The position numbers and the translations under genes were made by a program. The notes beneath the pieces are model-generated. The model was not told the DNA's origin. It was given only the letters and a program-made list of their open reading frames with translations, and searched no databases. 64,000 bases of DNA from Luteibacter sp. OK325 (lineage in GTDB: Bacteria; Pseudomonadota; Gammaproteobacteria; Xanthomonadales; Rhodanobacteraceae). The stretch spans positions 124,001 through 188,000 of the forward strand of contig NZ_QAOX01000001.1 of assembly GCF_003050935.1 (NCBI RefSeq), in the 5' to 3' direction. This document shows, in pieces, positions 49,660-64,000 of the stretch; position 1 is the first letter of the stretch, and each line of letters begins with the position of its first letter.

Positions 49660-51998
49660 GCGGATCCCACGCCTTGCGCGCCGTGGCGCGCGACCAGGGC
49701 CGCGAACGTCATCGGCCGGTCGACGTGGAATCCCTGGGCATGATCGCAGCCGACGTCGCTGAGGAAGGCGATGGTCGCTTCGTCCTCCACGCCCTCGGCA
49801 GTCACCCGATAACCCAGGCGATGGCCGAGTTCGACCAGCGATCGGACGATCACGCGGTCGGTTTCATCGGTGGCGAGGTGTTGGACGAACATCTTGTCGA
49901 TCTTCAGTTCCCGGACGGGCAGGCGGCGCAGGTAGGCGAACGAGGTCTGGCCGACCCCGAAATCGTCGATCGCCATGTCGATACCCATATCGGCCAGGCG
50001 ACGGAGGACTTGAAGCGCCGCCTCCGGTTCACCGATCACGGCGCTCTCGGTCACCTCGAGGGTGAGCAAGGTGGCTGGCAGGCGGTGGACCCGGAGCAGA
50101 TCGGCCACGCGGTCGGGCAATTCCGTATCGCCGATGTCGCGCGCGGACAGGTTGATCGAAATGCGCATGGGCTGACCGGCGCGGGCCAGCTCGGCGGCCT
50201 GGGCAATGCCGCGGGCCAGGACCCAGCGGGTCAGCCGGCCGATGTTGCCGGTCTCCTCGGCCACGGTGACGAACTGCTCGGGCGACACCGTGCCGCGCCC
50301 CGGACGGGGCCAGCGCACCAGCGCTTCGGCGGCGTCGACGCGGCCGTCGGCAAGGTGACGCTTCGGCTGGTAGTACAACTCAAGAGCATCGCCGTCGATG
50401 GCCGCGCGCAACTCGCTCATCAGGGAAAGGCGTTCGGGCCGGTGCGGATCGGCCTGCGGGTCATAAACATCCACGCCTCGAGCCGAGCCCACCGCGGCGA
50501 ACTCGGCCACCTCGGCGCGCCGCAGCAGGGCGGCCGCGCGCTCGCCATGGCTGGGTGCCAGGGCAATGCCCACCGCCGGGCCCATGTCCACATTTACCTC
50601 GGCCTCCTGGTAGGGCTGGGCAAGCGCATCCATCACCCGGAATGCCACCGAAATCGCCTCGGCACGGTCGGCCCCACGCAGCCAGACAGCGAACTGCGTA
50701 TCCGTGGCCCGCGCCACGTAATGCGTGCCGGCGGCCTGCCCCACGCGAGCGCCGGCATCGCGCATCAGGCGGTCGGCCAGCGCATGACCGATGGTCTTGA
50801 TAATGTCCGGAAGGCGCGTGACGCCAACGATCAGCAAGGCGCCCTGCTGGCCCGGCGCGGTCGCGAGGTCCTGGTCGATCGCTTCCTCGGCGGCCGCGCG
50901 GTTGGGCAAGCCGGTCACGCCGTCGTGCATGGCCTGATGGCGAATGCGCAGTTCGCGTTCGCGCACCGCGTCACCCATCGTGCGGAACGCGGTGGCCAGC
51001 TCGCCGATCTCGTCGCGACGGCGCACAGCGGGCGCGTCGTGGTAGTCGCCGCCAGCGATACGCCGCGCCGCCGCGGCAAGCGCCTCCACCGGCCGCGAAA
51101 CACCCCGCGCCACCAGCCAGGCGACGAGCAGTCCTGCGCCGAGGCCCATGGCGAGCAATGCCAGCCATGCGTGCCATACCGCCTTGTAAGGCCGCAACGC
51201 ATCGTCGAGCGAGTAACCCAGTACGGCGTACACGGCCCCGCTGCCCTTGGGCTGGCGGAGCAACTGCGCAAGCACAAGATAGTCACGCCCGCCGATAGTC
51301 ACCGCGGTGGGCTGGGAGGGCAACGAACGGTCGCTGGAAGAGAAACTCGCGGTGAGCTCGGAATGACTGCTGCCACGTGCGATCACCGAGTAGTGGCCCG
51401 AACCGCTCGGCGTGGCCAGTTCGACATCGCGCGGCAGGGCCGACAGCTGTTGCATGTGCGCGATCATCGCGTCGTCGACCGGAATGCTCGCGGCCACCAG
51501 ACCCACCGGCTGGGGTGCATAAACCGGCACGACGACGATCCAGAAGGCTTTGCCGTCGACCACGGTGACGGCCGCCGTGCGTTCATTGAACGCCCGGCCC
51601 AGCAGATCCGGAAACGCGAATGGTTGGCTGTCGTCGGAAGCGTCGACCGTGTCGGCCTGGATCCTGCCCTCGAGGTCCACCAGTTGCATGCGCGACGCAC
51701 CGACGCGACGGCCATGGTTACGCAGGACGGAAAGAATGGTTTCCTTATCCCGCGCGCCGATGGCCGAGCGCAGCCCGTAATCCAGCGACATGATCTGCAC
51801 GCCGTTGGCGACGCTGGCCGAAAGATCGTTCATCTGCGCCACGAAGGCACCGGCATTCGCGCTCAGCTGGTGGCCGCCTTCCTTGACCAGCTGGCGACGC
51901 GCGACATCGTAGGCCAGCACGGCGGTAAGCCCCTGGACCAGGATCAGCGTGGCGACGAAGAACAGCGCCAGCCGGGTGCGGAAACCGAGGACCCGCAT
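49656..51998 (-). CDS. Membrane sensor with degenerate GGDEF and intact EAL (c-di-GMP phosphodiesterase)
   Basis: 780 residues. N-terminal membrane segment (ALFFVATLILVQGLTAVLAY), a periplasmic sensor of about 230 residues resembling dCACHE domains, a second membrane segment (WLALLAMGLGAGLLVAWLVA), a HAMP domain (RPVEALAAAARRIAGGDY), then GGDEF-like and EAL domains. The GGDEF motif is replaced by TDTQF at residues 432-436, so cyclase activity is unlikely. The EAL domain has EALVRW at 558, IDDFGVGQTSFAYL and GYRVTAEGVEDE, as in active phosphodiesterases. It starts 7 bp after the cupredoxin stop. Confidence 0.9.
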   Translation of the reverse strand: MRVLGFRTRLALFFVATLILVQGLTAVLAYDVARRQLVKEGGHQLSANAGAFVAQMNDLSASVANGVQIMSLDYGLRSAIGARDKETILSVLRNHGRRVGASRMQLVDLEGRIQADTVDASDDSQPFAFPDLLGRAFNERTAAVTVVDGKAFWIVVVPVYAPQPVGLVAASIPVDDAMIAHMQQLSALPRDVELATPSGSGHYSVIARGSSHSELTASFSSSDRSLPSQPTAVTIGGRDYLVLAQLLRQPKGSGAVYAVLGYSLDDALRPYKAVWHAWLALLAMGLGAGLLVAWLVARGVSRPVEALAAAARRIAGGDYHDAPAVRRRDEIGELATAFRTMGDAVRERELRIRHQAMHDGVTGLPNRAAAEEAIDQDLATAPGQQGALLIVGVTRLPDIIKTIGHALADRLMRDAGARVGQAAGTHYVARATDTQFAVWLRGADRAEAISVAFRVMDALAQPYQEAEVNVDMGPAVGIALAPSHGERAAALLRRAEVAEFAAVGSARGVDVYDPQADPHRPERLSLMSELRAAIDGDALELYYQPKRHLADGRVDAAEALVRWPRPGRGTVSPEQFVTVAEETGNIGRLTRWVLARGIAQAAELARAGQPMRISINLSARDIGDTELPDRVADLLRVHRLPATLLTLEVTESAVIGEPEAALQVLRRLADMGIDMAIDDFGVGQTSFAYLRRLPVRELKIDKMFVQHLATDETDRVIVRSLVELGHRLGYRVTAEGVEDEATIAFLSDVGCDHAQGFHVDRPMTFAALVARHGAQGVGSA

Positions 51999-52005
51999 GG
52001 CCCGC

Positions 52006-52650
52006 TCAGTAGCCGATGTGCTCGCGATCCATCGCGCCGCGCGGATCGGGCAGCAGGGCGAGGTTGAAACGGACGGTGGCCGGCGCCGCCTCGCTCACGG
52101 TGACACCCTGGATCGGCAGGGTCACCCCGGGGCGGAGTTGCGGGTGCCAGGCGTGGGCGCGGTACTGCCCCGCATTGACGCCATCGATGCTTGCCCTGCC
52201 CTGTGCGTCGGTCGTCGCCATCTCGGGATCCTTCGTCACGTAGAGATAGGTGAGCATCTGGTCGTGGATGTTGCAGCCGACCGCGGCGTTGCCGGGATTG
52301 TTCATCAACAGGGCGGGCGAACTTTCGCCGGGGCCGAGCATGTACTCGAACTTCACCATGTCCGAAAACGAGTAGACGTGGTGCCGCGTGTTGTCGCTGT
52401 TACGGAAGATCACGCTGTCGCCGGGGTGCAATGCGGTGACGTAGGGTAGGAAGGTTTCGTCCTTCTGGTCGACGAATCGGGTGGCCGGCGCGATCCCTCG
52501 TGACGTGGTGCCAGGCATCGGCGCAAGGCTCACGATCGCATCCGCCACGGGGCGCCCGTTCGTATCCACGACTTCGATAACCACCCTTCCGGCATGGGCC
52601 GGCGCGGCGCCCAGGATCAATACGGTCGCAACGGCGAGCAGGCAGCGCAT
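52006..52650 (-). CDS. Periplasmic cupredoxin-domain protein (methylamine-utilisation-like)
   Basis: 214 residues with a signal peptide (LLAVATVLILGAAPAHA). The middle is a cupredoxin fold: HPGDSVIFRNSDNTRHHVYS carries the first His ligand (H90 or H91), and VGCNIHDQM carries C126, H129 and M132. This is the His-Cys-His-Met set of a type 1 copper site. After it comes a carboxypeptidase-regulatory-like segment (TDAQGRASIDGVNAGQYRAH). It could carry electrons or sense copper/redox state. It is the first gene of a tight operon with the EAL sensor, porin-like protein and diguanylate cyclase. Confidence 0.85.
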   Translation of the reverse strand: MRCLLAVATVLILGAAPAHAGRVVIEVVDTNGRPVADAIVSLAPMPGTTSRGIAPATRFVDQKDETFLPYVTALHPGDSVIFRNSDNTRHHVYSFSDMVKFEYMLGPGESSPALLMNNPGNAAVGCNIHDQMLTYLYVTKDPEMATTDAQGRASIDGVNAGQYRAHAWHPQLRPGVTLPIQGVTVSEAAPATVRFNLALLPDPRGAMDREHIGY

Positions 52651-52694
52651 AGGAATCCCCTGTGTCCCGCGGCTAGCCTAGCTCAGTTGGCGGT

Positions 52695-52895
52695 TCAGCC
52701 GCGAACGGGGCGCAGCATGCGGCAGATGGCGACCATGGGACGATGCGGACCGCAGGGGTCCGTACTCCAGAAGTCGCCGCGATGCGAAGCGGCGACAGCG
52801 TCGAACGGCGGTTGCCCTGGACCTTGTGCGCGGCCGCAGGCCAGGGCGAGCAGGAGCCCGGCCAGCATCGCTATGGACTTCGTGGTGACGTGCAT
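52695..52895 (-). CDS. Small putative lipoprotein
   Basis: 66 residues from ATG 52895, preceded by GGGGGGAAGG. The N terminus is a lipoprotein signal (MHVTTKSIAMLAGLLLALAC) with lipobox LAC at Cys20, leaving a mature part of 47 residues with two more cysteines (FWSTDPCGPH and AICRML). No family recognised. It begins 29 bp after the ABC exporter stop and is followed after 44 bp by the cupredoxin gene, so it might belong to either transcription unit. It is too short for firm conclusions, but ribosome-binding site and lipobox support it. Confidence 0.6.
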   Translation of the reverse strand: MHVTTKSIAMLAGLLLALACGRAQGPGQPPFDAVAASHRGDFWSTDPCGPHRPMVAICRMLRPVRG

Positions 52896-52924
52896 GGCCT
52901 TCCCCCCGGTTGACGAGGCCGACG

Positions 52925-54616
52925 TTAGGCTCCCGCGCGTGAAGGAACAATAGACCGAATGGAGGGGCCGACGGTCACGCAGTGCTCGGCCAGCGCGCAA
53001 ACGCCTTCGCGATGGGAGACGACGATCAGCAGGCTTCGCGGCAACCGGCGCTTCATGGCCGAGAGGACGGCCAGTTCCGAGGCTGCGTCCAGCGCGCCGG
53101 TCGCTTCGTCGAGCACGGCCACCGCAGGCTCGCGCAGGATCACCTGGGCCAGCAGTAACCGTTGCAGCTCACCGCCGGACAGCCGGCTGGATGCATCGTG
53201 CAGCGCGGTGTCCAGGGGCTTATCGAGGCCGACATCGCGCAGGACCTGACGCAATTGTCCGTCTGCCGCCGACGGCGCCGCCCAGCGCAGGCAGTCCCTG
53301 ACCGTGGCCTGCCACGGCCGCACGCTCTGGCTGACGTAGGCGCCATGACGGACATAGGCGCGATAGGTGTCGTAGTCGATGGCATGCCCGCCGACACGCG
53401 CATCGAAGACCGCCGGTCGCGCCATGCCGGCGAGAACGTCGACGAGGCTGCTTTTACCGATCCCGGAATCACCCTGGATGAGCACGAGCTCTCCGCGGCG
53501 CATGACCAGGTCACCGAGTTCGATGCCGGGCACCGGCGGGGTGACATGAATGCGCCGGAGATGGATGCCGGCCTCCGGGAGCGTCGGCCGTGCCGTCGCC
53601 GCAGGTGGCTCTTCAGATGTCGGCAGGTGCATATAGCGCTGCCACAGTTCCAGGGCCGGCGCAGCCGAGCGTATCTGCTGGATGCTCTGCCGCGTCGAGA
53701 CCAGGTAGGGCAACAGCCGGCCGAGCAGGAGGCACACGGCGATCAACGCGCCCTGGTCGATGCCATGCCAGCGCTGCGCAAGCACGAACAGCGTGGCAAT
53801 GCCGCCGACCGCCAGCAGTTCCAGGATCAGCCGGCCCGACGCGATCAGCTCCAGTTGACGCGCGTAGCCGCGCGAAAGGTCCCTGGACACCTCGCCGTAA
53901 CTGTCACGTTCGACATCCTCGCGGCCGAACGAACGGACATGGCGAAGCCGGCGGGGAAAATCCTCGCTGTGCCAGAACAGCCGTGTCATGTTCGCCACGT
54001 AGCGGCGGCCCACCTCGATCTGTTCGCGACCGTAGAAGCGCGACGCAAGCAACGCAAGGACAGCCAGCGGCGGCGCGACGAGAAGCAGTGGCGGCGATAC
54101 CCAGAAGGCCAGCGAGAGGCTGACTGTCGCGGTGACCCCGGCGATCAGTAACTGCTGCAGCGCGCTGAAGCCCTGCACGACGATCTCGACGTTATAGGTA
54201 AGCACATTGGCGATCTCCGCCGAGCTGGCGGCGGCGAGCGGCCCGATCTCGGCGGCGATCAGGCGTGCGTGCACCTGGCGACGCAGGCGCATGCCGTAGC
54301 GGCCGACAAGACGTGCACCGAGGCACGACGCCTGCCAGCGCAACAACGCGAAGGCGAGCGTCACGCCAGTGAATGCGGCGGTCCGCCAGCCCATGCTCAT
54401 GGAGGCATGGAACCAGCGGCCCTCGAACGGCAACCGCGCATCCGGCTGCACCAGCGGCACCAACAACATGGCGGCAAGGGCACCGGCGAGTGCCGAGCCC
54501 AGCGAGAGAGCGACGTAGATACCGACTTTCCAGCGGTCCGCCGGTGGCAAGGTCGCGACGAGCGATCGCAGGACAGTGTGCAAACCCGCGCCCGGTATCG
54601 CGTCCTTCATCGTCAT
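52925..54616 (-). CDS. ABC exporter (fused membrane and ATPase domains)
   Basis: 563 residues from ATG 54616, which overlaps the HprK-like stop by 4 bp. About five to six hydrophobic segments (residues 25-330) are followed by an ATPase domain. Walker A is GDSGIGKSS, signature LSGGELQRLL, Walker B VAVLDEATGALD and switch His in VSHREG. There is no N-terminal C39 peptidase, so it would not cleave a leader itself. The type and the partnership with an HprK-like kinase resemble exporters of lasso-peptide and related gene clusters. Cargo unknown. Confidence 0.85.
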   Translation of the reverse strand: MTMKDAIPGAGLHTVLRSLVATLPPADRWKVGIYVALSLGSALAGALAAMLLVPLVQPDARLPFEGRWFHASMSMGWRTAAFTGVTLAFALLRWQASCLGARLVGRYGMRLRRQVHARLIAAEIGPLAAASSAEIANVLTYNVEIVVQGFSALQQLLIAGVTATVSLSLAFWVSPPLLLVAPPLAVLALLASRFYGREQIEVGRRYVANMTRLFWHSEDFPRRLRHVRSFGREDVERDSYGEVSRDLSRGYARQLELIASGRLILELLAVGGIATLFVLAQRWHGIDQGALIAVCLLLGRLLPYLVSTRQSIQQIRSAAPALELWQRYMHLPTSEEPPAATARPTLPEAGIHLRRIHVTPPVPGIELGDLVMRRGELVLIQGDSGIGKSSLVDVLAGMARPAVFDARVGGHAIDYDTYRAYVRHGAYVSQSVRPWQATVRDCLRWAAPSAADGQLRQVLRDVGLDKPLDTALHDASSRLSGGELQRLLLAQVILREPAVAVLDEATGALDAASELAVLSAMKRRLPRSLLIVVSHREGVCALAEHCVTVGPSIRSIVPSRAGA

Positions 54617-55626
54617 GCGCTCGCGACGTGGCTCGACGTCAGCAACCGGCGCAAGGCATCGACCGAGGCGCTCGGGTGGCGGCCACGTCGGAGCAGGTGC
54701 ACATCCATGTCTGCCAGTTGATGGACGAAGCGGTGCCATCCGGCCTGACCCGACGCATAGGGCTGGTCGGCAAGCAGCCGGGCGGCAATCTCGTCGTGCT
54801 CCAGCGGCAGGAGCATGTCGGCGGCGTCATCGACCACCTCGGCGGAAACGAACACCGCGCCCATCAACGCCAGCGGGGACGTTGCGACGTGTCCGCCACC
54901 GTGACGAAGATCGGCTTCGTATTTCTCCACACCGCTGCGCCGCCGTATCGTTGGCGACTGCTCGATCCATTGGCGCATCGGACCGTCGTCGATGAAGCGC
55001 AAAGCGTCCTCGCGCACGTGCAGGAAATTGCCGACGCCACGCGCTTGCATGCTGCGCGGATCGACGAAGATCGCGTCCTCGGCGACGAAGTCCATCCCGC
55101 CGAGCAACCCATGCAGGGCAAGCGTGGACTTACCTGCGCCACTGGCGCCAAGGAGGAGAACGCCACGGCCATCCAGGCCCAGGCATGCGCCGTGCAAAGG
55201 AAGAAGGTCCATGCCGCGTGCGGCGAGCACGAACACGGCGAACTCGACCAGTTCGTAGCGCACGTGATAACGCCAGTCGAGCATGTCTTCGGACACCACT
55301 ACCAGCGCCCGTTGACGCGCGTGGTCGACGATCACGTAGTTGGAGGCGTCCATGATGCCGCAGAGCAGGCCCGCCCCCGATTGCGTAAGCAGCGGCGGCG
55401 GCTCGTCGAGCACCGCCGTGCGACGCGGCGGCGCCAGACGCAGCTCGACCTGGAAGCTCGGCTGCGGCGTGCCGGATACGTCGCGCGGCAGGCCGCCGTA
55501 GGCGGCCTCTACCGGCTCGAGCAGCGCCGGATGGGTGCTGTCGAAGCGGAACTGTGCACCGAGGATGGTCTTGACCATGGCGAAGGGATAGGGCGAGCGC
55601 TCGAAGAAGGGATCGATCTGGGCCAT
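54613..55626 (-). CDS. HprK-like P-loop kinase
   Basis: 337 residues from ATG 55626. The C-terminal half is an HPr kinase-like ATPase: Walker A GASGAGKST at residues 160-168, followed by GMDFVAEDAIFVD and a short catalytic region. The N-terminal about 140 residues (starting with AQIDPFFERSPYPFAMVKTI) match no domain I recognise and replace the usual HprK N domain. Similar stand-alone kinases are found in some lasso-peptide clusters, where they phosphorylate the precursor, and in exopolysaccharide loci next to PqqD-like and nucleotidyltransferase proteins. Here the kinase is coupled to the exporter; no PqqD-like gene is visible in the window. Confidence 0.75.
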   Translation of the reverse strand: MAQIDPFFERSPYPFAMVKTILGAQFRFDSTHPALLEPVEAAYGGLPRDVSGTPQPSFQVELRLAPPRRTAVLDEPPPLLTQSGAGLLCGIMDASNYVIVDHARQRALVVVSEDMLDWRYHVRYELVEFAVFVLAARGMDLLPLHGACLGLDGRGVLLLGASGAGKSTLALHGLLGGMDFVAEDAIFVDPRSMQARGVGNFLHVREDALRFIDDGPMRQWIEQSPTIRRRSGVEKYEADLRHGGGHVATSPLALMGAVFVSAEVVDDAADMLLPLEHDEIAARLLADQPYASGQAGWHRFVHQLADMDVHLLRRGRHPSASVDALRRLLTSSHVASA

Positions 55627-55673
55627 GCGGTATCCCGGCAGGTGAACCCGTGGGTGCGGAGCCCCGGCGGAAA

Positions 55674-55698
55674 GGTTGCGCAGACGCAGGTTGCAACC
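55674..55698. promoter_or_regulatory. Possible operator in the kinase/radical-SAM divergent region
   Basis: A perfect 10-bp palindrome GGTTGCAACC (55689-55698) and a half-site GGTTGC at 55674-55679, 15 bp apart start to start. It lies in the 127-bp gap (55627-55753) from which two of the cluster's transcription units diverge. No regulator gene is present in the window. Confidence 0.35.
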
Positions 55699-55753
55699 CT
55701 CGCCGTGCGCGGGGGCACTCACTGACCAACGCGATGATCGAGGCTCCCCCGAC

Positions 55754-57244
55754 ATGCTCAAGATTCAGGTCGGCCACTCCTACTTCCTTCGATACGATCC
55801 GAAGCAGTGGGAACGTGGCAAACCCTATCCCCCGCTCGCCACCATCCAGGTGGCCGCCCTGCTTCGCGAGATGGGCCATGAACTGGCGTTGTTCGACGCG
55901 ATGCTGGCCGACGGCGTGGAGGAGTACTCCGGCGCCTTGCATGCCGCGCGTCCTGACCTCGTCGTCATCTACGAGGACAATTTCAATTACCTGACCAAGA
56001 TGTGCCTCAGCCGCATGCGCGACGCGGCGTGCCAGATGATCGCGGAGGCCCGTGCCTACGGCGCGCGGGTCATCGTCGCCGGCTCCGATGCGTCGGACCA
56101 GCCCGAAGCGTTTCTCGCCGCAGGAGCCGATGCGGTATTGGTTGGCGAAGGCATCGCCGCGCTGGCAGCCCTGGTCGACCGGCTGCAACGCACGCCGGAT
56201 ATCGATCCCGCCGACTGGGCGGCCGGCCTCTCCGGCGTCGCCACCCTCGTCGACGGGAAGGCCGAGCTGGTTCGTCTCGGCGCCGTTCCGCCGGACCCGC
56301 GCGTGGTCGGGCGCCCTGCGTGGGACCTGGTCGACATCGAGCGCTATCGTTCGCTCTGGCAGGAACGCCACGGTTATTTCAGCCTTAACATGGCCGCGTC
56401 ACGCGGTTGCCCGTTCCGCTGCAACTGGTGCGCCAAGCCGATCTGGGGCAACCACTACAAGCAACGCAGCGCGGAAGACGTCGCCGCGGAGATGACCTAC
56501 CTCAAGCGTACCTTCCGGCCCGATCACATCTGGATGGCCGACGACATCTTCGGCTTCCACGTCGGCTGGGTGGCAGCGTTCGCCGAGCACCTGCGCGAGA
56601 GCGACGGGTCCGTGCCGTTCACCATCCAGACCCGCGCCGACCTCGGCAGCGAGCGCATGGTCGCCGCCCTGGCCGACGCCGGTTGTGCCGAAGCCTGGAT
56701 CGGCGCGGAAAGCGGTAGCCAGCGCGTGCTCGATCGAATGAACAAGGGCACCACGGTGGCCGAGCTCATCGCGGCGCGGCGCCGCTTCGGCGAGCACGGC
56801 GTGCGCGTGGGGTTCTTCATCCAGCTGGGTTACCTCGGCGAGCAGTTGACCGATCTGCTTGCCACCCGCGACCTGGTCGCGGAGGCGGCTCCTGACGATA
56901 TCGGTGTCAGTGTGTCGTATCCGCTACCGGGGACGAAGTTCTACGAGGAAGTAAAGGCGCAGCTGGGCAGGAAGACGCATTGGCGCGACAGCAACGACCT
57001 CGCGATGATGTTCCGCGGCGCCTACGACTCCGATTTTTACCGCAGCATGCGCGACCTGCTCCATCAGCAGGTCAACCTGCGCCAATCACGTGAAACGCTA
57101 TCGGCCGCACGCCGAAACGATGCCCACGCCGTGCTCGAAACGCGCTGGAACACGCTGTTCGCACACGAAGCCGAACATCGCACGGAACAACCCACGCCCT
57201 CGCCGTTCATGGCGATGCAGACCATCGCCCTGCCCTTACTGTAG
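55754..57244 (+). CDS. Cobalamin-binding-type radical SAM protein (A)
   Basis: 496 residues from ATG 55754. The N-terminal about 170 residues form a B12-binding-like alpha/beta domain (PPLATIQVAALLREMGHELA, DLVVIYEDNF, VIVAGSDASDQPE, ADAVLVGEG). The radical SAM cluster motif is CxxxCxxC as GCPFRCNWC (C219, C223, C226), with the glycine-rich and GAESGSQRVLDRMNKGTT SAM-binding segments after it. The architecture is the BchE/class B methylase type; methylation or another carbon-centred radical reaction is expected, substrate unknown. The longer frame back to 55676 overlaps the divergent regulatory region and is not used. It is 8 bp before the nucleotidyltransferase gene. Confidence 0.85.
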   Translation: MLKIQVGHSYFLRYDPKQWERGKPYPPLATIQVAALLREMGHELALFDAMLADGVEEYSGALHAARPDLVVIYEDNFNYLTKMCLSRMRDAACQMIAEARAYGARVIVAGSDASDQPEAFLAAGADAVLVGEGIAALAALVDRLQRTPDIDPADWAAGLSGVATLVDGKAELVRLGAVPPDPRVVGRPAWDLVDIERYRSLWQERHGYFSLNMAASRGCPFRCNWCAKPIWGNHYKQRSAEDVAAEMTYLKRTFRPDHIWMADDIFGFHVGWVAAFAEHLRESDGSVPFTIQTRADLGSERMVAALADAGCAEAWIGAESGSQRVLDRMNKGTTVAELIAARRRFGEHGVRVGFFIQLGYLGEQLTDLLATRDLVAEAAPDDIGVSVSYPLPGTKFYEEVKAQLGRKTHWRDSNDLAMMFRGAYDSDFYRSMRDLLHQQVNLRQSRETLSAARRNDAHAVLETRWNTLFAHEAEHRTEQPTPSPFMAMQTIALPLL

Positions 57245-57252
57245 ATACCGCC

Positions 57253-58476
57253 ATGATGCCCTCCCTGAAGCTCGTCCGTAGCGGCCTGAACCGCACCACC
57301 GAAGCGCTCGCCGCGGAGCTGGCGCTGGCCAGGCCGGGCAGCCGGCTTCCGGCATGGACGGACCTCGAATGGAGGCTGGCTTCCGCGGTGGCGGTGGCGC
57401 ACGGGGTTTCGCCCCTGCTCAGTCGCCTGTCGACCTGGCAGAAGCCCGCGTGGCGGCTGTTTCTCGCTGCCCAGCGCGAGCACGTGGAACAGCGGCATCG
57501 CCGGATCGCCGCGCTGCTGGATCGCATCGACGACGGCGCGCGCGATGTCGGCGTGGCCATCGTGCCGCTGAAAGGCTCGGCGTTGCACGCGCTGGGTATA
57601 TACACCCCGGGGGACCGCCCCATGGCCGACATCGACCTGCTCGTTCGCGAGGAGGACGTCGGCCCCACCACCGCCCTGCTCCACGAACTCGGCTATGTGG
57701 AGTCATTTACACAGTGGAAACACCGCGTGTTCAAGCCGGTCGACAGCAATCCATTCGCCGGTCTGGGTGAACATCGCGACACACCGGTCAACATCGAACT
57801 GCACACGCGTATCCAGGAGCGGCTACCGGTTTCCGCGGTCGATATCACCACGCGTATCTATCCCCGCCATGCGCGACCCGGCCTCAATCCCTACCCCTCC
57901 ACGGGGGCGCTGATGAGCCACCTGTTACTGCACGCGGCCGGCAACGTCTGTGGTCGCAGCCTGCGACTCATGCACCTCAATGACATCTCGCTGCTGGCCA
58001 CTCGCATGCTCGCCAGCGACTGGCAGGCCTTGTGGGACGACGGGCGCCCTGGTTCGGCCTGGTGGGCGCTGCCACCGTTGCGCCTTGTCGCACGCTACTA
58101 CCCGCACGCGGTGCCACCGATCATCCTCGCCAGGCTGGAACGTGAGTGCCCTGCCCTGCTCCGCACCATGTCGCGACGCTGGACGCTGACCGACATGTCC
58201 TGCTCGGACCTCTGGCTGCACGCCCTGCCCGGGGTGGAGTGGTCGCGCAACCTGACCGAGGTGGCACGTTGCGTCAGGAATCGCCTGCGGCCATCCGCGG
58301 AGAGCGTGAGCGAACGCGCCGACATGGTGCGTACGCAAGTGTGGTTGCAAGGCCAGAGCTGGGTGACACAGGGACATCGTCGACGCATGCTCACCTGGCT
58401 GACCCGGCCGGTGCCGCGCATGGACACCCTGTACGTCGTCCGCGCCGCGCTCGAACCCGCCGCGCCGCTCGCCTAG
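57253..58476 (+). CDS. Nucleotidyltransferase-fold protein (PF14907-like)
   Basis: 407 residues. The fold motif is in VAIVPLKGSALHALGIYTPG and RPMADIDLLVREED, the metal-binding DxD of the polymerase-beta superfamily, as in the NTP_transf_5 (PF14907) family. A second conserved block NIELHTRIQERLP follows, then helices. Members of this family accompany HprK-like kinases in lasso-peptide and exopolysaccharide loci. Which nucleotide or acceptor is used cannot be told. The TAG stop overlaps the TAG stop of the convergent glycosyltransferase in a shared CTAG. Confidence 0.75.
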   Translation: MMPSLKLVRSGLNRTTEALAAELALARPGSRLPAWTDLEWRLASAVAVAHGVSPLLSRLSTWQKPAWRLFLAAQREHVEQRHRRIAALLDRIDDGARDVGVAIVPLKGSALHALGIYTPGDRPMADIDLLVREEDVGPTTALLHELGYVESFTQWKHRVFKPVDSNPFAGLGEHRDTPVNIELHTRIQERLPVSAVDITTRIYPRHARPGLNPYPSTGALMSHLLLHAAGNVCGRSLRLMHLNDISLLATRMLASDWQALWDDGRPGSAWWALPPLRLVARYYPHAVPPIILARLERECPALLRTMSRRWTLTDMSCSDLWLHALPGVEWSRNLTEVARCVRNRLRPSAESVSERADMVRTQVWLQGQSWVTQGHRRRMLTWLTRPVPRMDTLYVVRAALEPAAPLA

Positions 58477-59588
58477 GCCACGGCGCCACGCCGCGCCAAA
58501 AGCTCCTGGTACAGGGCTTCGAAGGAGCGCGCGGTGTAATCGGCATCCTCGGCGAGTGCACGTCGTTGGGCGGCTTCGGCGAGGCGGCAACGCAGTGCCT
58601 CGTCCACCAGTACGCGCTGGATCGCCATGGCCAGGCCGACCCAGTCGCCCACCGCGACAGCGAGCGCAGCCGATGGCGACCACTCCGCGATATGACCCAC
58701 GGCCGTACCCACCGTGGGCACGCCGGCGACCGCCGCTTCGAGCAGCACGAGCGGTCCGGCCTCGTGTAACGACGACATCACCAGCAGGTCGCAAGCCGCC
58801 ACGAGCGGACGCAGTTCACGCTGCGTGCGGAAGCCCAGGAAGCGCACGTGGTTCTCCAGACCCAACTCATGAACCAACCGTTCCATCCGCCCCTGCAAGG
58901 TGTCGACGCCGACGATAGCCATCTCGAAGTCCACACCGGCATCGCGTAGCGCGGCCAGTGCGCGCAGCAAGGTGGTCTGGTCCTTCACCAGGTTGAGGCT
59001 GGCGACATGCATCAAACGGGCGCGCGGTGTGGCGCGGCGACGTGGCGCGAGCGGTGGCCACGCCGTCAGGTCGACACCGAGCGGGATGCGCCGCGACCGA
59101 ATGCCAAGCGCGCTCAGCGCGTCGACGATGGGCGCGCTGGCTGCCGTCACGGCGTCCGTCGCGCGAAGCACGACGGCTTCGCGAAGCCGGCCCTTCCAGC
59201 GCCGACGACCGCCGTATCCGATCGCGTGCAGGGCCACCAGTTCGCCGCCGGCGATGTGCACGAGGCTGGATATGCGTAGCAGCTTTGCCGCCGCCACAGC
59301 GATGAAGCTGCACGAACCGGAGAAGATCGCGTGAATCATGGCGAAGGGGGCCACCCGGTGCTCCGCACGAATCGCGGCGATCGCACGCAGGCGCGGCCAA
59401 CCATCACCTATGTTGTGCACCGTGGCGCCCAGTAGCGGCCAGGTCGCCGGCAAGGGTTCCTGATGCAGGACAAACACATGGACGTCATGCACGCGCGCGA
59501 GTCGTGCGATGAGGGCAAGGAAGACCGGGATCACGCGGTATTCGCCCGTGCGGTCCATGCCGCCCGGTACGACGATGGCGAGTTTCAC
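58473..59588 (-). CDS. GT4-type glycosyltransferase (A)
   Basis: 371 residues from GTG 59588, which overlaps the upstream glycosyltransferase stop by 4 bp. The N-terminal GT-B domain starts KLAIVVPGGMDRTGEYRVIP. The C-terminal nucleotide-sugar-binding domain has RLMHVASLNLVKDQTTLLRA, HVRFLGFRTQRELRPLVAAC and EAGPLVLLEAAVAGVPTVGT (the EX7E-type motif). Cytoplasmic; donor and acceptor unknown. It is last in the five-gene - strand unit running from the window's right edge. Confidence 0.88.
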   Translation of the reverse strand: MKLAIVVPGGMDRTGEYRVIPVFLALIARLARVHDVHVFVLHQEPLPATWPLLGATVHNIGDGWPRLRAIAAIRAEHRVAPFAMIHAIFSGSCSFIAVAAAKLLRISSLVHIAGGELVALHAIGYGGRRRWKGRLREAVVLRATDAVTAASAPIVDALSALGIRSRRIPLGVDLTAWPPLAPRRRATPRARLMHVASLNLVKDQTTLLRALAALRDAGVDFEMAIVGVDTLQGRMERLVHELGLENHVRFLGFRTQRELRPLVAACDLLVMSSLHEAGPLVLLEAAVAGVPTVGTAVGHIAEWSPSAALAVAVGDWVGLAMAIQRVLVDEALRCRLAEAAQRRALAEDADYTARSFEALYQELLARRGAVA

Positions 59589-60709
59589 GATCGACCCTCC
59601 CGCCGGTCCGCCAACAGTCGCGCATAGGCATCGGCCCATTGGCGACCCACGGCGGCGAAGGAGAGCGTGGCGTCGAAGAAGGAGCGCACGTCGGCGCGTG
59701 ACGGGCGGATGCCCGCTGCGCGCACCAGCGCCTCGGTCAGTCGCACGGCGTCGCCGCACGGCCACAGTTCGCCGACGACGTTACCCGTGAGCGAACGAAA
59801 CGACGGAATGTCCGTGACCACCGGCGTGACGCCACAGGCCAGCGCCTCGAGCAGCGCGAAGCCACAGCTCTCGCCGTGGCTACCCGAAACGAAGAGGTCC
59901 GCGGCACGCATCAGCGTTTCGATGCGCGCATGCGGCTGCTTACCCAGAAGATGCACCCGGCCATGCAGACGAGGATCGCTGTCGATCTTGTGACGCACCT
60001 CGTCCAGCAAGGGCGCGCTGCCAAAGGCACAGTAGAGCTGTATGCCCGGAAGGCGCTGCGCAGCACGCGCGACGCCCTCGAGCACGGTCAGCGGATCCTT
60101 GCCGTGGCTCAGGTGCCCCACCCACAGCACGCACGGATCGCCGCGCAATCCCGTCTCGACGCGTGCGGCCTGGTGATCGCCCGGATGAAAACGACTGCTC
60201 GATTCGGGAATGGCAAACAACCGCGTGCGTTGCGCGAACAGGCCGGCGCGCGTGAATGGCCCGGCCAGTCCCGGCGAAGTGAAGGCGATACCGGAAGCCG
60301 CCGCGTACCAGGTGCGCCAGCGGGGCCGCCGCCACCAGCGCGGCGGACGGTCGGCGTGGTCCTGGATGAGGATGGGCACCCGCGGCAATCGTTGGGCCAC
60401 GGCAAACGCATCGGCGGCAAAGCCGAGGCTGTGCACGTGAAGCACCTGGCTGCCGATATCGGCGACGAGATCGGCGAGGAAGCGACCACGCGTCGTCGGC
60501 GAATGCATGCCGCGCAGGTCGACGAAGTGATAGTCGATGCCATGGCGAGTGAATATTCGTGGCCGCGCGGCGACCTGGATCACCGATACGCGTGTGCCCG
60601 ACGCGGCCGCCGCTTCCGGAATGTCAGCCAGCGACGGCCAGCGTTCGAATAGTTCGTCCGGCGTGCAGTCCGCCGGCGCGCGGAGGAAATTGATCTGGGC
60701 GACATGCAC
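59585..60709 (-). CDS. GT4-type glycosyltransferase (B)
   Basis: 374 residues. The C-terminal half is clearly GT4: VLWVGHLSHGKDPLTVLEGV, VHLLGKQPHARIETLMRAAD and GESCGFALLEALACGVTPVV. The N-terminal half begins HVAQINFLRAPADCTPDELF and is less conserved. It starts 13 bp after the second radical SAM gene and overlaps glycosyltransferase A, so the two would be made together. Whether they act in sequence on one acceptor is inference. Confidence 0.88.
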   Translation of the reverse strand: MHVAQINFLRAPADCTPDELFERWPSLADIPEAAAASGTRVSVIQVAARPRIFTRHGIDYHFVDLRGMHSPTTRGRFLADLVADIGSQVLHVHSLGFAADAFAVAQRLPRVPILIQDHADRPPRWWRRPRWRTWYAAASGIAFTSPGLAGPFTRAGLFAQRTRLFAIPESSSRFHPGDHQAARVETGLRGDPCVLWVGHLSHGKDPLTVLEGVARAAQRLPGIQLYCAFGSAPLLDEVRHKIDSDPRLHGRVHLLGKQPHARIETLMRAADLFVSGSHGESCGFALLEALACGVTPVVTDIPSFRSLTGNVVGELWPCGDAVRLTEALVRAAGIRPSRADVRSFFDATLSFAAVGRQWADAYARLLADRREGRS

Positions 60710-60722
60710 GGGCGTACCTCGC

Positions 60723-62267
60723 CTAGAGACCGGAAACCTGGGGCATGCGCAGGCGCACGAGCCGGTTGGCGAGGTTGAGCTCCCAGGGCCGGTCGTACTG
60801 GCGTCGACGGTAACGCCACGAAGCCATGGCGCTCAGGCCACGCTTGGCCCACGACGGCGAGCGCAGGTCCTGCACGGTCGGGAAACGGCAGCGCAGCACG
60901 GTGACGAAGTCCTGGATGTGCCGGCGCAGGTCATCGGTCAGCCATGGGGCATCGGCGTGGCAGGCATAGTCCACCCAGCGACGCTCCGTCCATTCCTCGG
61001 GAGACGACGGGAAGACCACGGGCTCGCCATGCAGGTCGAGCAGTGGCATGGAGGCGTGCTTACCACGGTCCTTCTCATGCTTGCTGCTTTCCGGCAGCGG
61101 CGTGTAGATGTAGACGATGATCTCCGACGCCGGGTTGATCCGTTTCAGCTCGCGGATGAACTCGAACGTGTGCTCGGTTTCTTCCAGCGTGTTCTGCGGC
61201 GGCGCCACCATGAACGAAAGTTCGGGAATCACGCCGTTGCGGCGGCACAGTTCGGCAACCTGCAGCGTCTGGTCGGGCCGCGTGCCCTTACGGATCTCCT
61301 TGAGCATGGCGCCGCTGGGCGATTCGGCGCCCACGTAGGCCATGCGCAGGCGGCTCTTGCGTACCAGTTCCCAGGTGCTCTCGGACAGGTTCAGCAGCGC
61401 ATCGGAACGTGCATAACACCACCATGGCATTTCCAGTTTCGCCATGACTTCGAGCAGCGGAATCATGTCGACTTCGCGATCGAAGAAATTGTGGTCGAAG
61501 AACTGGATCGAATCGGCACCGAGTTCGTACTTGAGGTAGCTCAGGTCGCGTTCGAGCCGCTTCGCCGTGGGCAGCTCGGTCTTGCCACCGAACATCGCGT
61601 TCACGCCGCAGAACGTGCAGCGAAAACGGCAGCCGATGGACGCCTGGTGCGCGGCCGTGCGCTCGCCAAGGAAGGTGCGCGCGAGATACCGGCGCGGATC
61701 GCCCAGCTTGTCGTACGGCAGGACGATACCGCTGTCACCGAGGGAGAAGCGCCGGTTAGGGTTGTGGACGACCGCGCCGTCGCGCTTCCAGGACAGGCTG
61801 CCGATGTTCGAGACGGCCGGCTCGCCGGGCCGGGTCAGGGCCGCGACCAGTTCCGGCAGACTCTCTTCAGCCTGGCCGCGTATCGCGTAATCGACATAGG
61901 CCGCGGAAAGTGCCGTGTCCGTGTAGAGCGTCGGGAAGTAACCGCCCCAGATGATCGGCAACTGCGGATAGCGCTCGCGGATCACGCGGGAGACTTCGAT
62001 GGATGGCGCGACCTGCGGGCCGCCCATCACGCTGATACCGACCGCGTCGAATCGATCACCCTCGATCGCGGCCAGCGTGGCCCCGATGAGGTCGCGATCG
62101 ACGTTGCCGTCGATGATCTGGCTATGCCCGTTGCGATCCAACGAGGCCGCCAGGTTGAGCAGCGCAAGCGGGAAGCGCGCGCTCGAACGCGATGTGATCG
62201 TCGGGTTGATCAGCAACGTCCGTGGCGAACGCCCCGTGTCGGGCGTCGATGTGTCGGATAGGCTCAC
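60723..62267 (-). CDS. Cobalamin-binding-type radical SAM protein (B)
   Basis: 514 residues from GTG 62267, whose GTGA overlaps the methyltransferase stop; the open frame extends further but only as an antisense-like shadow of the methyltransferase gene. The B12-binding-like N domain (residues about 15-150) includes PLALLNLAASLDRNGHSQII, DAVGISVMGGPQVAPSIEVS and IIWGGYFPTLYTD. The cluster motif is GCRFRCTFC (C213, C217, C220), followed by IQFFDHNFFDRE and AYVGAESPSGAMLKEIRKGT. It is only distantly like radical SAM protein A, so the two are unlikely to be a recent duplication. Substrate unknown. Confidence 0.87.
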   Translation of the reverse strand: MSLSDTSTPDTGRSPRTLLINPTITSRSSARFPLALLNLAASLDRNGHSQIIDGNVDRDLIGATLAAIEGDRFDAVGISVMGGPQVAPSIEVSRVIRERYPQLPIIWGGYFPTLYTDTALSAAYVDYAIRGQAEESLPELVAALTRPGEPAVSNIGSLSWKRDGAVVHNPNRRFSLGDSGIVLPYDKLGDPRRYLARTFLGERTAAHQASIGCRFRCTFCGVNAMFGGKTELPTAKRLERDLSYLKYELGADSIQFFDHNFFDREVDMIPLLEVMAKLEMPWWCYARSDALLNLSESTWELVRKSRLRMAYVGAESPSGAMLKEIRKGTRPDQTLQVAELCRRNGVIPELSFMVAPPQNTLEETEHTFEFIRELKRINPASEIIVYIYTPLPESSKHEKDRGKHASMPLLDLHGEPVVFPSSPEEWTERRWVDYACHADAPWLTDDLRRHIQDFVTVLRCRFPTVQDLRSPSWAKRGLSAMASWRYRRRQYDRPWELNLANRLVRLRMPQVSGL

Positions 62268-62971
62268 GCGATACGCCTCAGCTGGAAGACCAGGGCCACG
62301 GGAAGTTCGAGGGCCATCGGGTCGAAATGCGCACCGACGGGGATATCGGCAGGATCGAGCATCGGTTCTTCCACGCGTTCGATGGCCAGGCCGAGCGTCG
62401 CGCAGGCCGCATGCCAGTGGCTGTAGAGATGCCGAGTATGGCGCACCGCGTAGCTCCGGCCGCCCGCTCGAAAGTCGCGCTGCCAGCCCAGTGCGTGCCC
62501 GATGGGGTGCACATCGCTGCAGAGGATGCGGCCGCCAGGACGGGTGGCCCGGCGCAGATCCGCCAGTGCGGGAGCCAGCGTTTCGAGATGCCCGATGGTC
62601 AGGCCGCATATCGTCAGGTCCGCCAGCGAACCGGGCACGGGCATGGCGGCAAGGTCGCCCTGGCGCAGCTCGACACGCCCTTCGGCGATGTATCCGTCCA
62701 GCGCCTCGCGCGCCCGACCGAGCATGTCGGGGGAGAGGTCGACGCCGGTCACGCGCGACGCGTCGCGGCGCAAGGCATGCAATAGATAGCGTCCGCTACC
62801 GCAGCCGGCGTCGAGCACGTGCCGACCTCGCAGGGCCTCGGGCATCAGGGCCAGCATCGCACGCTCCTCGGCCATCATCACCGGGTTGTGCGCGTGTGCG
62901 GGGTAGTCGGACGACCACAGCGCATAGGCTGCGAGGGGCTCCAGTACCGGCAAAGGGGACGTCAGTGACAC
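62264..62971 (-). CDS. Class I SAM-dependent methyltransferase
   Basis: 235 residues. SAM motif I is HVLDAGCGSGRYLL, motif II VTGVDLSPDMLGRARE, motif III ELRQGDLAAMPVPGSLADLT and post-motif RPGGRILCSDVHPIG: a UbiE/BioC-like small-molecule or peptide methyltransferase. It starts with GTG at 62971, overlapping the amidohydrolase stop by 10 bp, and its stop overlaps radical SAM protein B. O-, N- or C-methylation cannot be distinguished. Confidence 0.88.
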   Translation of the reverse strand: MSLTSPLPVLEPLAAYALWSSDYPAHAHNPVMMAEERAMLALMPEALRGRHVLDAGCGSGRYLLHALRRDASRVTGVDLSPDMLGRAREALDGYIAEGRVELRQGDLAAMPVPGSLADLTICGLTIGHLETLAPALADLRRATRPGGRILCSDVHPIGHALGWQRDFRAGGRSYAVRHTRHLYSHWHAACATLGLAIERVEEPMLDPADIPVGAHFDPMALELPVALVFQLRRIA

Positions 62972-64000
62972 CGGGCCTCCATGGCGAGATCGATCTCGCT
63001 TTCGTCATGAGAAAAGGAAACCTCGAGACCGGGCTCGAGCGCGAACACCGCGGGTTCGGCCAGCGAACGCGCGATCAGCTTCGGGCGGCCGTCCAGTTGC
63101 ACCGCGATGGTGTCCACGCCGGCGGCGGCGAACCAGTCGGCGAAGTCGGGATCGGCGATGCGCGGCACGCCTTCGCGCACGACCGCGCGGATGTCGCTAC
63201 GTGTCAGACCGACCAGGCTGTCCGCGGCCAGGCCCTCGCGATCCCGCACGATCAGCAGGTCAGCCGGTGCGCCGGCGGCCAGGCCGCCGCGCAGGCCGAG
63301 GCGGAAGATGCGAGCCGCTTGTGTCGTGACGAGAGCGAGCAGCGCCGTGCTCGACAATTCACCTCGCGCCGCGACATCGCTCAGCTCATCGAGCAGGTCG
63401 CGACGACCGCTGAGCCGCGAGTCGCTACCCAGCGCCAGGCAACCTGCCGCGTACAACCGGCGCGGGTCGAGCGTGCGTCCGAGCAGGGCGCGGTTGCTGC
63501 CGGGACACCAGACCACGGCAGCGCCACGGGCGATGACACGTTCGATATCGGCGGCGTCAAGACCGACGCCATGGATCAATACCGTATTGCTGCCGAGGCA
63601 GCCGAGCGCGTCCAGGCGCGCCAGCTCCGCGGCGGCCACCGCGTCAGTGCCTTCGGCAAGATGGATCATCCAGGGGCGGTCCGCAGGCGTCGAATGGTAG
63701 CTCGCGCTCACCGGCGGCCCGAATTCCGGACCATCGAGCGCGTAACTCCAGCCGTGGTCGCGGAGCAACGCCACCGGGAAGTCATCCTCATCGAGCGCCG
63801 CGTGCCAGGGGTCGTGGTGGACCACGCAGGTGGTCCCGGCGAGCAGGTTCTTCAGCGCGCCATGGCGAAGACGGACCGACTTCGGGACCCGCAGGGCGGC
63901 GGCGACATCGGCGTCGTGGAAATGCTGCTGGAAGGCATCTATCCAGGCGTAGCTGTTCGGAAAAGGCTCGGCACGGCGCAGCGGAGGCACGGCGTTAACC
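62962..64000 (-). CDS. Amidohydrolase-superfamily protein, N terminus beyond the window
   Basis: The frame is open from the right edge to a TGA at 62962-62964 and yields about 345 residues. Metal and catalytic positions seen are His in TTCVVHHDP, WMIHLAEGTD and VLIHGVGLD, and Asp in LALGSDSRLSG. The N-terminal HxH is expected just upstream of the edge (sequence VNAVPPLRRA reads like the stretch following it), so the GTG at 63990 is probably not the real start. A conserved C-terminal composite domain (APADLLIVRDREG) is present. It heads, or continues, the unit with the methyltransferase, radical SAM B and two glycosyltransferase genes. The substrate is unknown; deaminase, lactamase-like or peptidase-like roles are all possible. 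Confidence 0.8.
   Translation of the reverse strand, partial: VNAVPPLRRAEPFPNSYAWIDAFQQHFHDADVAAALRVPKSVRLRHGALKNLLAGTTCVVHHDPWHAALDEDDFPVALLRDHGWSYALDGPEFGPPVSASYHSTPADRPWMIHLAEGTDAVAAAELARLDALGCLGSNTVLIHGVGLDAADIERVIARGAAVVWCPGSNRALLGRTLDPRRLYAAGCLALGSDSRLSGRRDLLDELSDVAARGELSSTALLALVTTQAARIFRLGLRGGLAAGAPADLLIVRDREGLAADSLVGLTRSDIRAVVREGVPRIADPDFADWFAAAGVDTIAVQLDGRPKLIARSLAEPAVFALEPGLEVSFSHDESEIDLAMEARCH

Follow-up and report, generated by a model that had tools for sequence, protein, structure and literature searches.

Wzx/Wzy-dependent polysaccharide loci are a known class, and other described systems share parts with the locus considered here, which lies at one end of a 64,000-nucleotide stretch of Luteibacter sp. 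OK325 DNA (contig NZ_QAOX01000001.1, our C1, positions 124001–188000; this whole stretch is called the window below). The FdtA/FdtB (QdtA/QdtB) pathway leads to a thymidine diphosphate (dTDP)-linked 3-amino-3,6-dideoxyhexose, and AprD4 (6fd2), which belongs to apramycin biosynthesis, has an aminoglycoside sugar as its substrate. In lasso peptides, according to passages of PMC9266682 and PMC8498205, a serine is phosphorylated by a homologue of HPr kinase, and in pseudomycoidin a nucleotidyltransferase puts a hexose on the serine phosphate. We think it likely that the end of the window holds the left part of a 16-gene Wzx/Wzy-type surface polysaccharide locus (for an exopolysaccharide, a capsule, or an O-antigen-like glycan) with a tailoring module of B12-type radical S-adenosylmethionine (SAM) enzymes, a kinase, and a nucleotidyltransferase. 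As a Wzx/Wzy-type glycan locus it would be of a known kind; its tailoring genes are unusual.

The 16 genes comprise those for an ATP-binding cassette (ABC) exporter and a kinase on the minus strand, those for a radical SAM enzyme (rSAM A) and a PF14907 nucleotidyltransferase on the plus strand, and then twelve on the minus strand. The end of the window cuts this long minus-strand operon, whose remaining genes run to 70879 in extended coordinates (reading was continued to coordinate 81000 on stretch L001, in which position p is window position p + 61999). An earlier note, made from the letters of the window, had listed ten genes: these exist as described, although the end of the window truncates the set and the supposed lipoprotein is not linked to the cluster. 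The same note had called the locus unrecognised, which holds within our searches of open-licence PubMed Central papers, which turned up no published description of the block; in the retrieved part of PMC3130047 the radical SAM gene is a 68-amino-acid (aa) plasmid open reading frame (ORF), and the retrieved part of PMC11340318 contains no relevant gene.

Polysaccharide genes and their conservation

The part of the locus beyond the window is polysaccharide machinery, which bears out one of the products proposed in the earlier note, a glycoconjugate. As in other Wzx/Wzy-dependent loci, there are genes for a flippase (Wzx-like, 67976–69232; PF01943, 39.7 bits versus a cut-off of 28.2), a chain-length protein (Wzz-like, 65054–65890; PF02706, 29.0 versus 25.5 bits), a polymerase-like membrane protein (Wzy-like, ending at about 67041), several glycosyltransferases, and nucleotide-sugar enzymes, all on the minus strand. 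The glycosyltransferases are a GT2 enzyme (ending at about 67990) and two GT4 enzymes, GT4a (58473–59588; PF00534, 88.2 bits; GTG start, checked) and GT4b (59585–60709; PF00534, 57.6 bits), with conservation of the H-E and E residues in the former (88/88) and of both glutamates in the latter (84/84). The flippase also scores 278.4 bits with the WzxE model NF011679, for which the cut-off is 325. Taken together, Wzx, Wzz, GT2, and the two GT4 enzymes make a Wzx/Wzy-type polysaccharide the best reading, in which the assignment of the polymerase is weak; the polymer part of the reading is well supported. Unlike other Wzx/Wzy-dependent loci, this one carries two B12-type radical SAM enzymes, a kinase of the HprK/PEPCK fold, the PF14907 enzyme, an aminohydrolase, and an extra ABC exporter, and no initiating transferase lies inside it.

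Two genes at the far end concern sugar supply. FdtA (70355–70879, minus strand; PF05523, 152.2 versus 23 bits) matches FdtA and QdtA structures in the PDB, and the DegT aminotransferase (69229–70386, minus strand; PF01041, 375 bits) has the PDB structure of QdtB among its best matches, likenesses that point to dTDP-3-amino-3,6-dideoxyhexose. Unlike in the FdtA/FdtB pathway, there is no acyltransferase between FdtA and DegT in the window's genome. The same interval was viewed in eight genus relatives: six have three extra ORFs (by eye, hexapeptide-acyltransferase-, beta-propeller-, and GNAT/FemAB-like), G013 has the beta-propeller- and GNAT/FemAB-like ORFs (again by eye), and G001 has none. In each of the 16 other-genus genomes whose stretch reaches FdtA, the starts of DegT and FdtA are 3.6–3.7 kb apart, which leaves room for the same three ORFs; the window's genome may thus have a reduced version.

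In the pathway that we infer from these genes, FdtA and the DegT aminotransferase would make dTDP-3-amino-3,6-dideoxyhexose, and the GT2 and two GT4 enzymes would assemble a repeat on a lipid carrier, the initiating transferase being encoded elsewhere. The Wzx-like flippase would carry the repeat across the membrane, the Wzy-like protein would polymerise it, and the Wzz-like protein would set the length.

The locus is inherited as one unit. Within the genus, we inspected 16 of the 17 relatives with rSAM A (leaving out G012, which is fragmented and has both rSAM A and the second radical SAM enzyme, rSAM B): in all 16, the 15 genes tested, from ABC to DegT, keep their order and strands, and FdtA is found in 16/16 as well. 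rSAM A and rSAM B have identical presence patterns, with 18 of the 23 genus genomes carrying both and five carrying neither. Three of these five genomes could be placed at an empty site, which consists of an EAL gene (by eye), a carboxypeptidase-regulatory-like gene, a small gene, and dus in G019 and G020, and of a GGDEF gene, the small gene, and dus in G008. The small gene and dus are about 117–134 bases apart in these three cluster-less genomes and 23.8 kb apart in the window's genome, indicating that the locus, along with a block of cytochrome and subtilase genes, was either inserted or cleanly lost.

Outside the genus, rSAM A is found in 69 of 298 genomes of the order at E 1e-100 (10 of 89 genera); in the class, the sole hit among 369 genomes at E 1e-60 is the window's own. 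Named genomes with rSAM A include members of Luteibacter, Rhodanobacter, Dyella, Frateuria, Xanthomonas, Lysobacter, Luteimonas, and Hydrocarboniphaga. Among the named loci examined (the best 80 of 382 confirmed), those with 6 kb of upstream sequence have the kinase in 73/73 and ABC in 70/73 cases, and the 68 with 9.5 kb of downstream sequence have PF14907 in 67, each GT4 in 65, the methyltransferase MT1 in 61, the aminohydrolase in 60, and rSAM B in 39, some of the absences being genes displaced beyond the stretch by inserts. Since these stretches stop before DegT, the far part was fetched in 20 other-genus genomes, hand-picked from the 54 order genomes with a match for their long contigs and their spread of genera. 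Wzz, Wzy, GT2, Wzx, and DegT are each present in 19 of the 20, the methyltransferase MT2 and the aminohydrolase in all 20, and FdtA in 16 (three stretches stop short of FdtA, and in G217 the genes from Wzy to FdtA are lost); the FdtA-bearing genomes include Rhodanobacter panaciterrae (L135), Dyella amyloliquefaciens (L127), and Xanthomonas sp. F10 (L111). Gene order is therefore conserved in both genus and order, in keeping with the earlier note's view of one biosynthetic locus and with the check that it had named, co-occurrence of the three transcription units in related genomes. Its presence in Luteibacter, Dyella, Rhodanobacter, and many Xanthomonas makes the locus a defined target for structural work on the surface sugars of soil and plant-associated bacteria.

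Probable tailoring genes

rSAM A (55754–57244, plus strand; PF04055, 62.8 bits) and rSAM B (60723–62267, minus strand; PF04055, 55.2 bits) are predicted from sequence to be B12-type radical SAM enzymes. The B12-binding domain PF02310, with a cut-off of 32.1 bits, scores 52.9 bits in rSAM B and 31.7 bits, just below the cut-off, in rSAM A, and the CX3CX2C cysteines are invariant among homologues of both (97/97 for rSAM A and 56/56 for rSAM B). Their nearest solved relatives are 9ccb, AprD4, and OxsB, to which TokK is added for rSAM B only. By sequence, AprD4 ranks first or second among the solved relatives of each enzyme; it is a distant one (E 3e-17 for rSAM A and 3e-7 for rSAM B), and its reaction is not transferable to them. 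As a side observation, in the distant loci L139 and L141 rSAM A is immediately followed by another radical SAM ORF (Pfam marks it as B12-type in L141, and it was recognised by eye in L139), and L139 has more radical SAM genes nearby.

Within the genus, rSAM B is the most conserved protein of the locus (79–96%), level with Wzx in the two nearest relatives. In Xanthomonas it is mostly missing: of 28 genomes, 3 keep the gene and 25 lack it, and 24 have a closed gap of 83–173 bases at its position. On a tree of rSAM A (a quick tree search with 97 rows, 17 of them without a label), the 24 closed-gap genomes form one side of a single branch, with a Shimodaira–Hasegawa-like approximate likelihood ratio (SH-aLRT) support of 99. 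L107, which is the genome G217, likewise lacks rSAM B at its usual place next to GT4b and MT1, yet it groups with rSAM B carriers, which rules out a single loss and implies at least two losses of rSAM B on this tree. The natural absence of the gene from one Xanthomonas clade offers a ready comparison for the chemistry of rSAM B.

Next to rSAM B stand MT1 (62264–62971, minus strand; PF13649, 68.8 bits), a SAM methyltransferase whose gene overlaps both of its neighbours, and the aminohydrolase (62962–64194, minus strand, cut by the window at 64000; PF01979, 55.9 bits), followed by MT2 (64199–65029, minus strand). The aminohydrolase belongs by its features to the guanine/methylthioadenosine (MTA)/S-adenosylhomocysteine (SAH) deaminase group: its HxH, H, H, and D metal ligands are each conserved in 71/71, it has the HxxE motif, and its profile matches are 4dyk, 4f0r (an MTA/SAH deaminase and the best match with a named substrate), and TM0936. 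About a third of the aminohydrolase chain lies within the match, and the assignment to the group is a prediction. The two methyltransferases and the two radical SAM enzymes would modify sugars, by C-methylation or deoxygenation, and the aminohydrolase probably acts as a deaminase, either on SAH and 5'-deoxyadenosine, which are by-products of SAM, or on an amino-sugar precursor.

The kinase (54613–55626, minus strand; probable start at MAQIDPF) has a fold of the HprK/PEPCK type and scores below the curated HprK cut-offs (29.9 versus 33.3 bits for PF07475, and far below for the NCBIfam HprK models); HPr kinases appear in its Foldseek match list, and none is among the 50 VIA-align matches listed. 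Residues H153, K174, E191, and D192 are invariant (96/96). For lasso kinases, a passage of PMC9266682 names the residues His-Lys-Asp-Asp, and by our own mapping the glutamate here stands at the first of the two aspartates. In the PF14907 enzyme (57253–58476, plus strand; 99.2 bits versus a cut-off of 31.2), the K-G and D-x-D residues are conserved in 94/94, and its profile has no match in the PDB at E 0.1. The ABC exporter (52925–54616, minus strand; start checked) fuses membrane and ATPase domains (PF00664, 41 bits; PF00005, 76.7 bits), and its Walker A lysine, SGG signature, and Walker B DE are conserved in 88/88.

This pairing resembles PsmK and PsmN of pseudomycoidin, which, in the passages cited above, are a kinase and an annotated nucleotidyltransferase, PsmN adding a hexose on phosphorylated serine, with related lasso kinases being homologues of HPr kinase. 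The likeness is one of description, and the setting differs: here no precursor, cyclase, protease, or PqqD is seen, and a glycan operon is present instead. By analogy, the kinase probably phosphorylates a hydroxyl and the PF14907 enzyme then adds a nucleotidyl or glycosyl group on the phosphate, and the ABC protein would flip the product. If both act on a glycan, this would be a function outside lasso peptides for a family that Pfam calls uncharacterised.

The pair of HprK-like kinase and PF14907 enzyme recurs elsewhere. In the class, PF14907 has 57 matches in 40 of 187 genomes, and an HprK-like match lies within 10 kb in 9 of the 57 cases; divergent HprK matches that score below the cut-off are near PF14907 in 8 of 11 cases, versus 0 of 33 for canonical ones (the counts include our own locus). 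We take this recurrence as evidence of shared logic and, where PqqD is present, of peptide substrates; for the locus described here, a glycan seems the more likely substrate. In two loci from metagenome-assembled genomes (MAGs; L125 and L131), ABC, kinase, rSAM A, and PF14907 adjoin Wzt-type genes, both with the Wzt C-terminal domain, and further neighbours are a large multi-domain glycosyltransferase in L125 and a GT2 gene in L131. The four most distant loci (L139–L142) keep rSAM A and the kinase, with PF14907 clear in two of them (L140 and L141); neighbours in L141 include GT2, transaldolase, HAD, and SIS genes. Because the same four genes stand beside Wzt-type genes, and two of them, rSAM A and the kinase, persist in all of the most distant loci, we tentatively suggest, as a possibility with the odds against it, that they form a transferable glycan-tailoring module new to glycobiology. 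Such a module would equip surface polysaccharides, whatever their type of assembly, with a cap or side group that is radically modified and linked through phosphate, by the kinase-then-nucleotidyltransferase logic of phosphorylated and glycosylated lasso peptides, without the peptide.

Glycan, peptide, or small metabolite

Several results weigh against a polysaccharide with this tailoring. The Wzy-like protein has no Pfam match and reaches only 30.7 bits against the 40 required by TIGR04370, and DegT scores below every NCBIfam cut-off. No initiating transferase was found in the locus; two PF02397 genes lie on other contigs (C2 and C7), and no search for WecA-type enzymes was made. Neither radical SAM enzyme attains any NCBIfam cut-off, so that their reactions are not readable from family membership. 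The G217 locus has decayed, with Wzy to FdtA and rSAM B lost and the rest retained. PqqD matches, some of them below the cut-off, lie within 10 kb of PF14907 in 25 of its 57 cases in the class, which would favour a peptide partner for the kinase module. The parallel with pseudomycoidin presupposes that PsmN is a member of PF14907.

The PqqD neighbours also favour the best-surviving alternative, namely, that the kinase, PF14907, rSAM A, and the ABC exporter are machinery for producing a modified peptide (of lasso-like kind or another ribosomally synthesised and post-translationally modified peptide) and exporting it, beside a polysaccharide locus that is adjacent by chance or through shared regulation. 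HPr kinase homologues and nucleotidyltransferases do occur in lasso clusters, as far as the cited passages go; the module sits in transcription units separate from the glycan operon, adjoins a different glycan type in L125 and L131, and has its rSAM A, kinase, and PF14907 genes surviving in the decayed G217. Against this, PqqD has no match in the genome at E 0.01 (two below the cut-off at E 0.1 lie on other contigs), no lasso cyclase or protease is present among the roughly 40 ORFs scanned in the window and L001, and none of these ORFs (which include many but not all of those at 34.3–80.8 kb in extended coordinates) has a Pfam match to the transglutaminase-like B2 or asparagine-synthetase-like C proteins. 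In 65 of 68 loci, moreover, the module has GT4a on its downstream side, not always as the next gene.

A linked precursor peptide was likewise not found, the sole candidate noticed being the small gene (52695–52895, minus strand), whose 66-aa product has a signal-like start and a conserved C-terminus (..DPCGPHRPMVAICRMLRPVRG) and is present, next to the cluster or to dus, in the majority of the genus. With an exporter as its neighbour it looked promising. It is ruled out by three results: matches at E ≤ 1e-8 occur in the cluster-less G008, G019, and G020; 6 of 16 cluster genomes do not have it beside the ABC gene; and its motif lies within 3 kb of that gene in only 1 of the 80 named loci (L109, a Luteibacter). 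This is the gene that the earlier note had placed in the ABC/kinase unit as a lipoprotein, and it is independent of the cluster. That note had also proposed a heavily modified peptide and had advised reading past 64000 for PqqD-, asparagine-synthetase-, and transglutaminase-like or precursor genes; none appeared among the ORFs scanned there, polysaccharide genes being found instead, and we regard a peptide product as unlikely.

A product that is no polymer, either a small lipid bearing sugars or a secondary metabolite that is secreted, seems to us slightly less likely again. The two methyltransferases and two radical SAM enzymes, with an aminohydrolase of deaminase-like type and an ABC exporter dedicated to the product, do resemble aminoglycoside-type tailoring, and AprD4 ranks high among the solved relatives of both radical SAM enzymes, but Wzx, Wzz, and the Wzy-like protein share an operon in 16/16 genus relatives and in 19/20 other genomes. 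A chance assembly of unrelated genes, which three units on two strands and recurrent Rhs and other inserts between units might suggest, is refuted by the gene order kept in 16/16 genus relatives and across genera, the identical presence of rSAM A and rSAM B in 23 genomes, and the three clean empty sites.

Flanks, inserts, and outlying loci

Genes on the two sides of the polysaccharide locus are of different kinds: on the left are regulators, a transporter, an M13 peptidase, and a GH31 gene, and on the right are a subtilase and dus, with cytochromes and a sigma factor recognised by eye. No cobalamin or other riboswitch was detected by Rfam at gathering scores in window positions 50000–64000, L001, L002, or L030. 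The right-hand block (extended coordinates 70804–76669, L001 8805–14670) contains the subtilase and, by eye, cytochrome b561-like and c-type cytochrome genes, an extracytoplasmic function sigma factor, and a possible anti-sigma gene, and it is part of the same 23.8 kb that is absent between the small gene and dus in the three cluster-less genomes. The subtilase also comes after FdtA in genomes of other genera, and G014 retains the subtilase in the absence of the cluster. In the decayed locus (G217, or L107; L183), which belongs to a 3.5-Mb genome, the cytochrome and subtilase genes come next after MT2 and a fragment of Wzz.

Inserts occur at several points within the cluster. Large ORFs with Rhs-like YD repeats (by eye) lie between PF14907 and GT4a in G018 (L043 9784–14487) and between MT2 and Wzz in G021 (L035/L051, at about 16.5–23 kb of the joined stretch). 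In Rhodanobacter, L078 has a VgrG-like ORF (by eye), and extra genes stand between PF14907 and GT4a in two loci: in L097 they encode two methyltransferases and a protein in which a flavin-reductase domain is weakly matched, and in L064 there are ORFs resembling these plus a GT2-like one (by eye). Lastly, the cluster is also present on a contig labelled Candidatus Eremiobacteraeota (L138), which the rSAM A tree places with L070, a Lysobacterales MAG; the contig is probably mis-binned.

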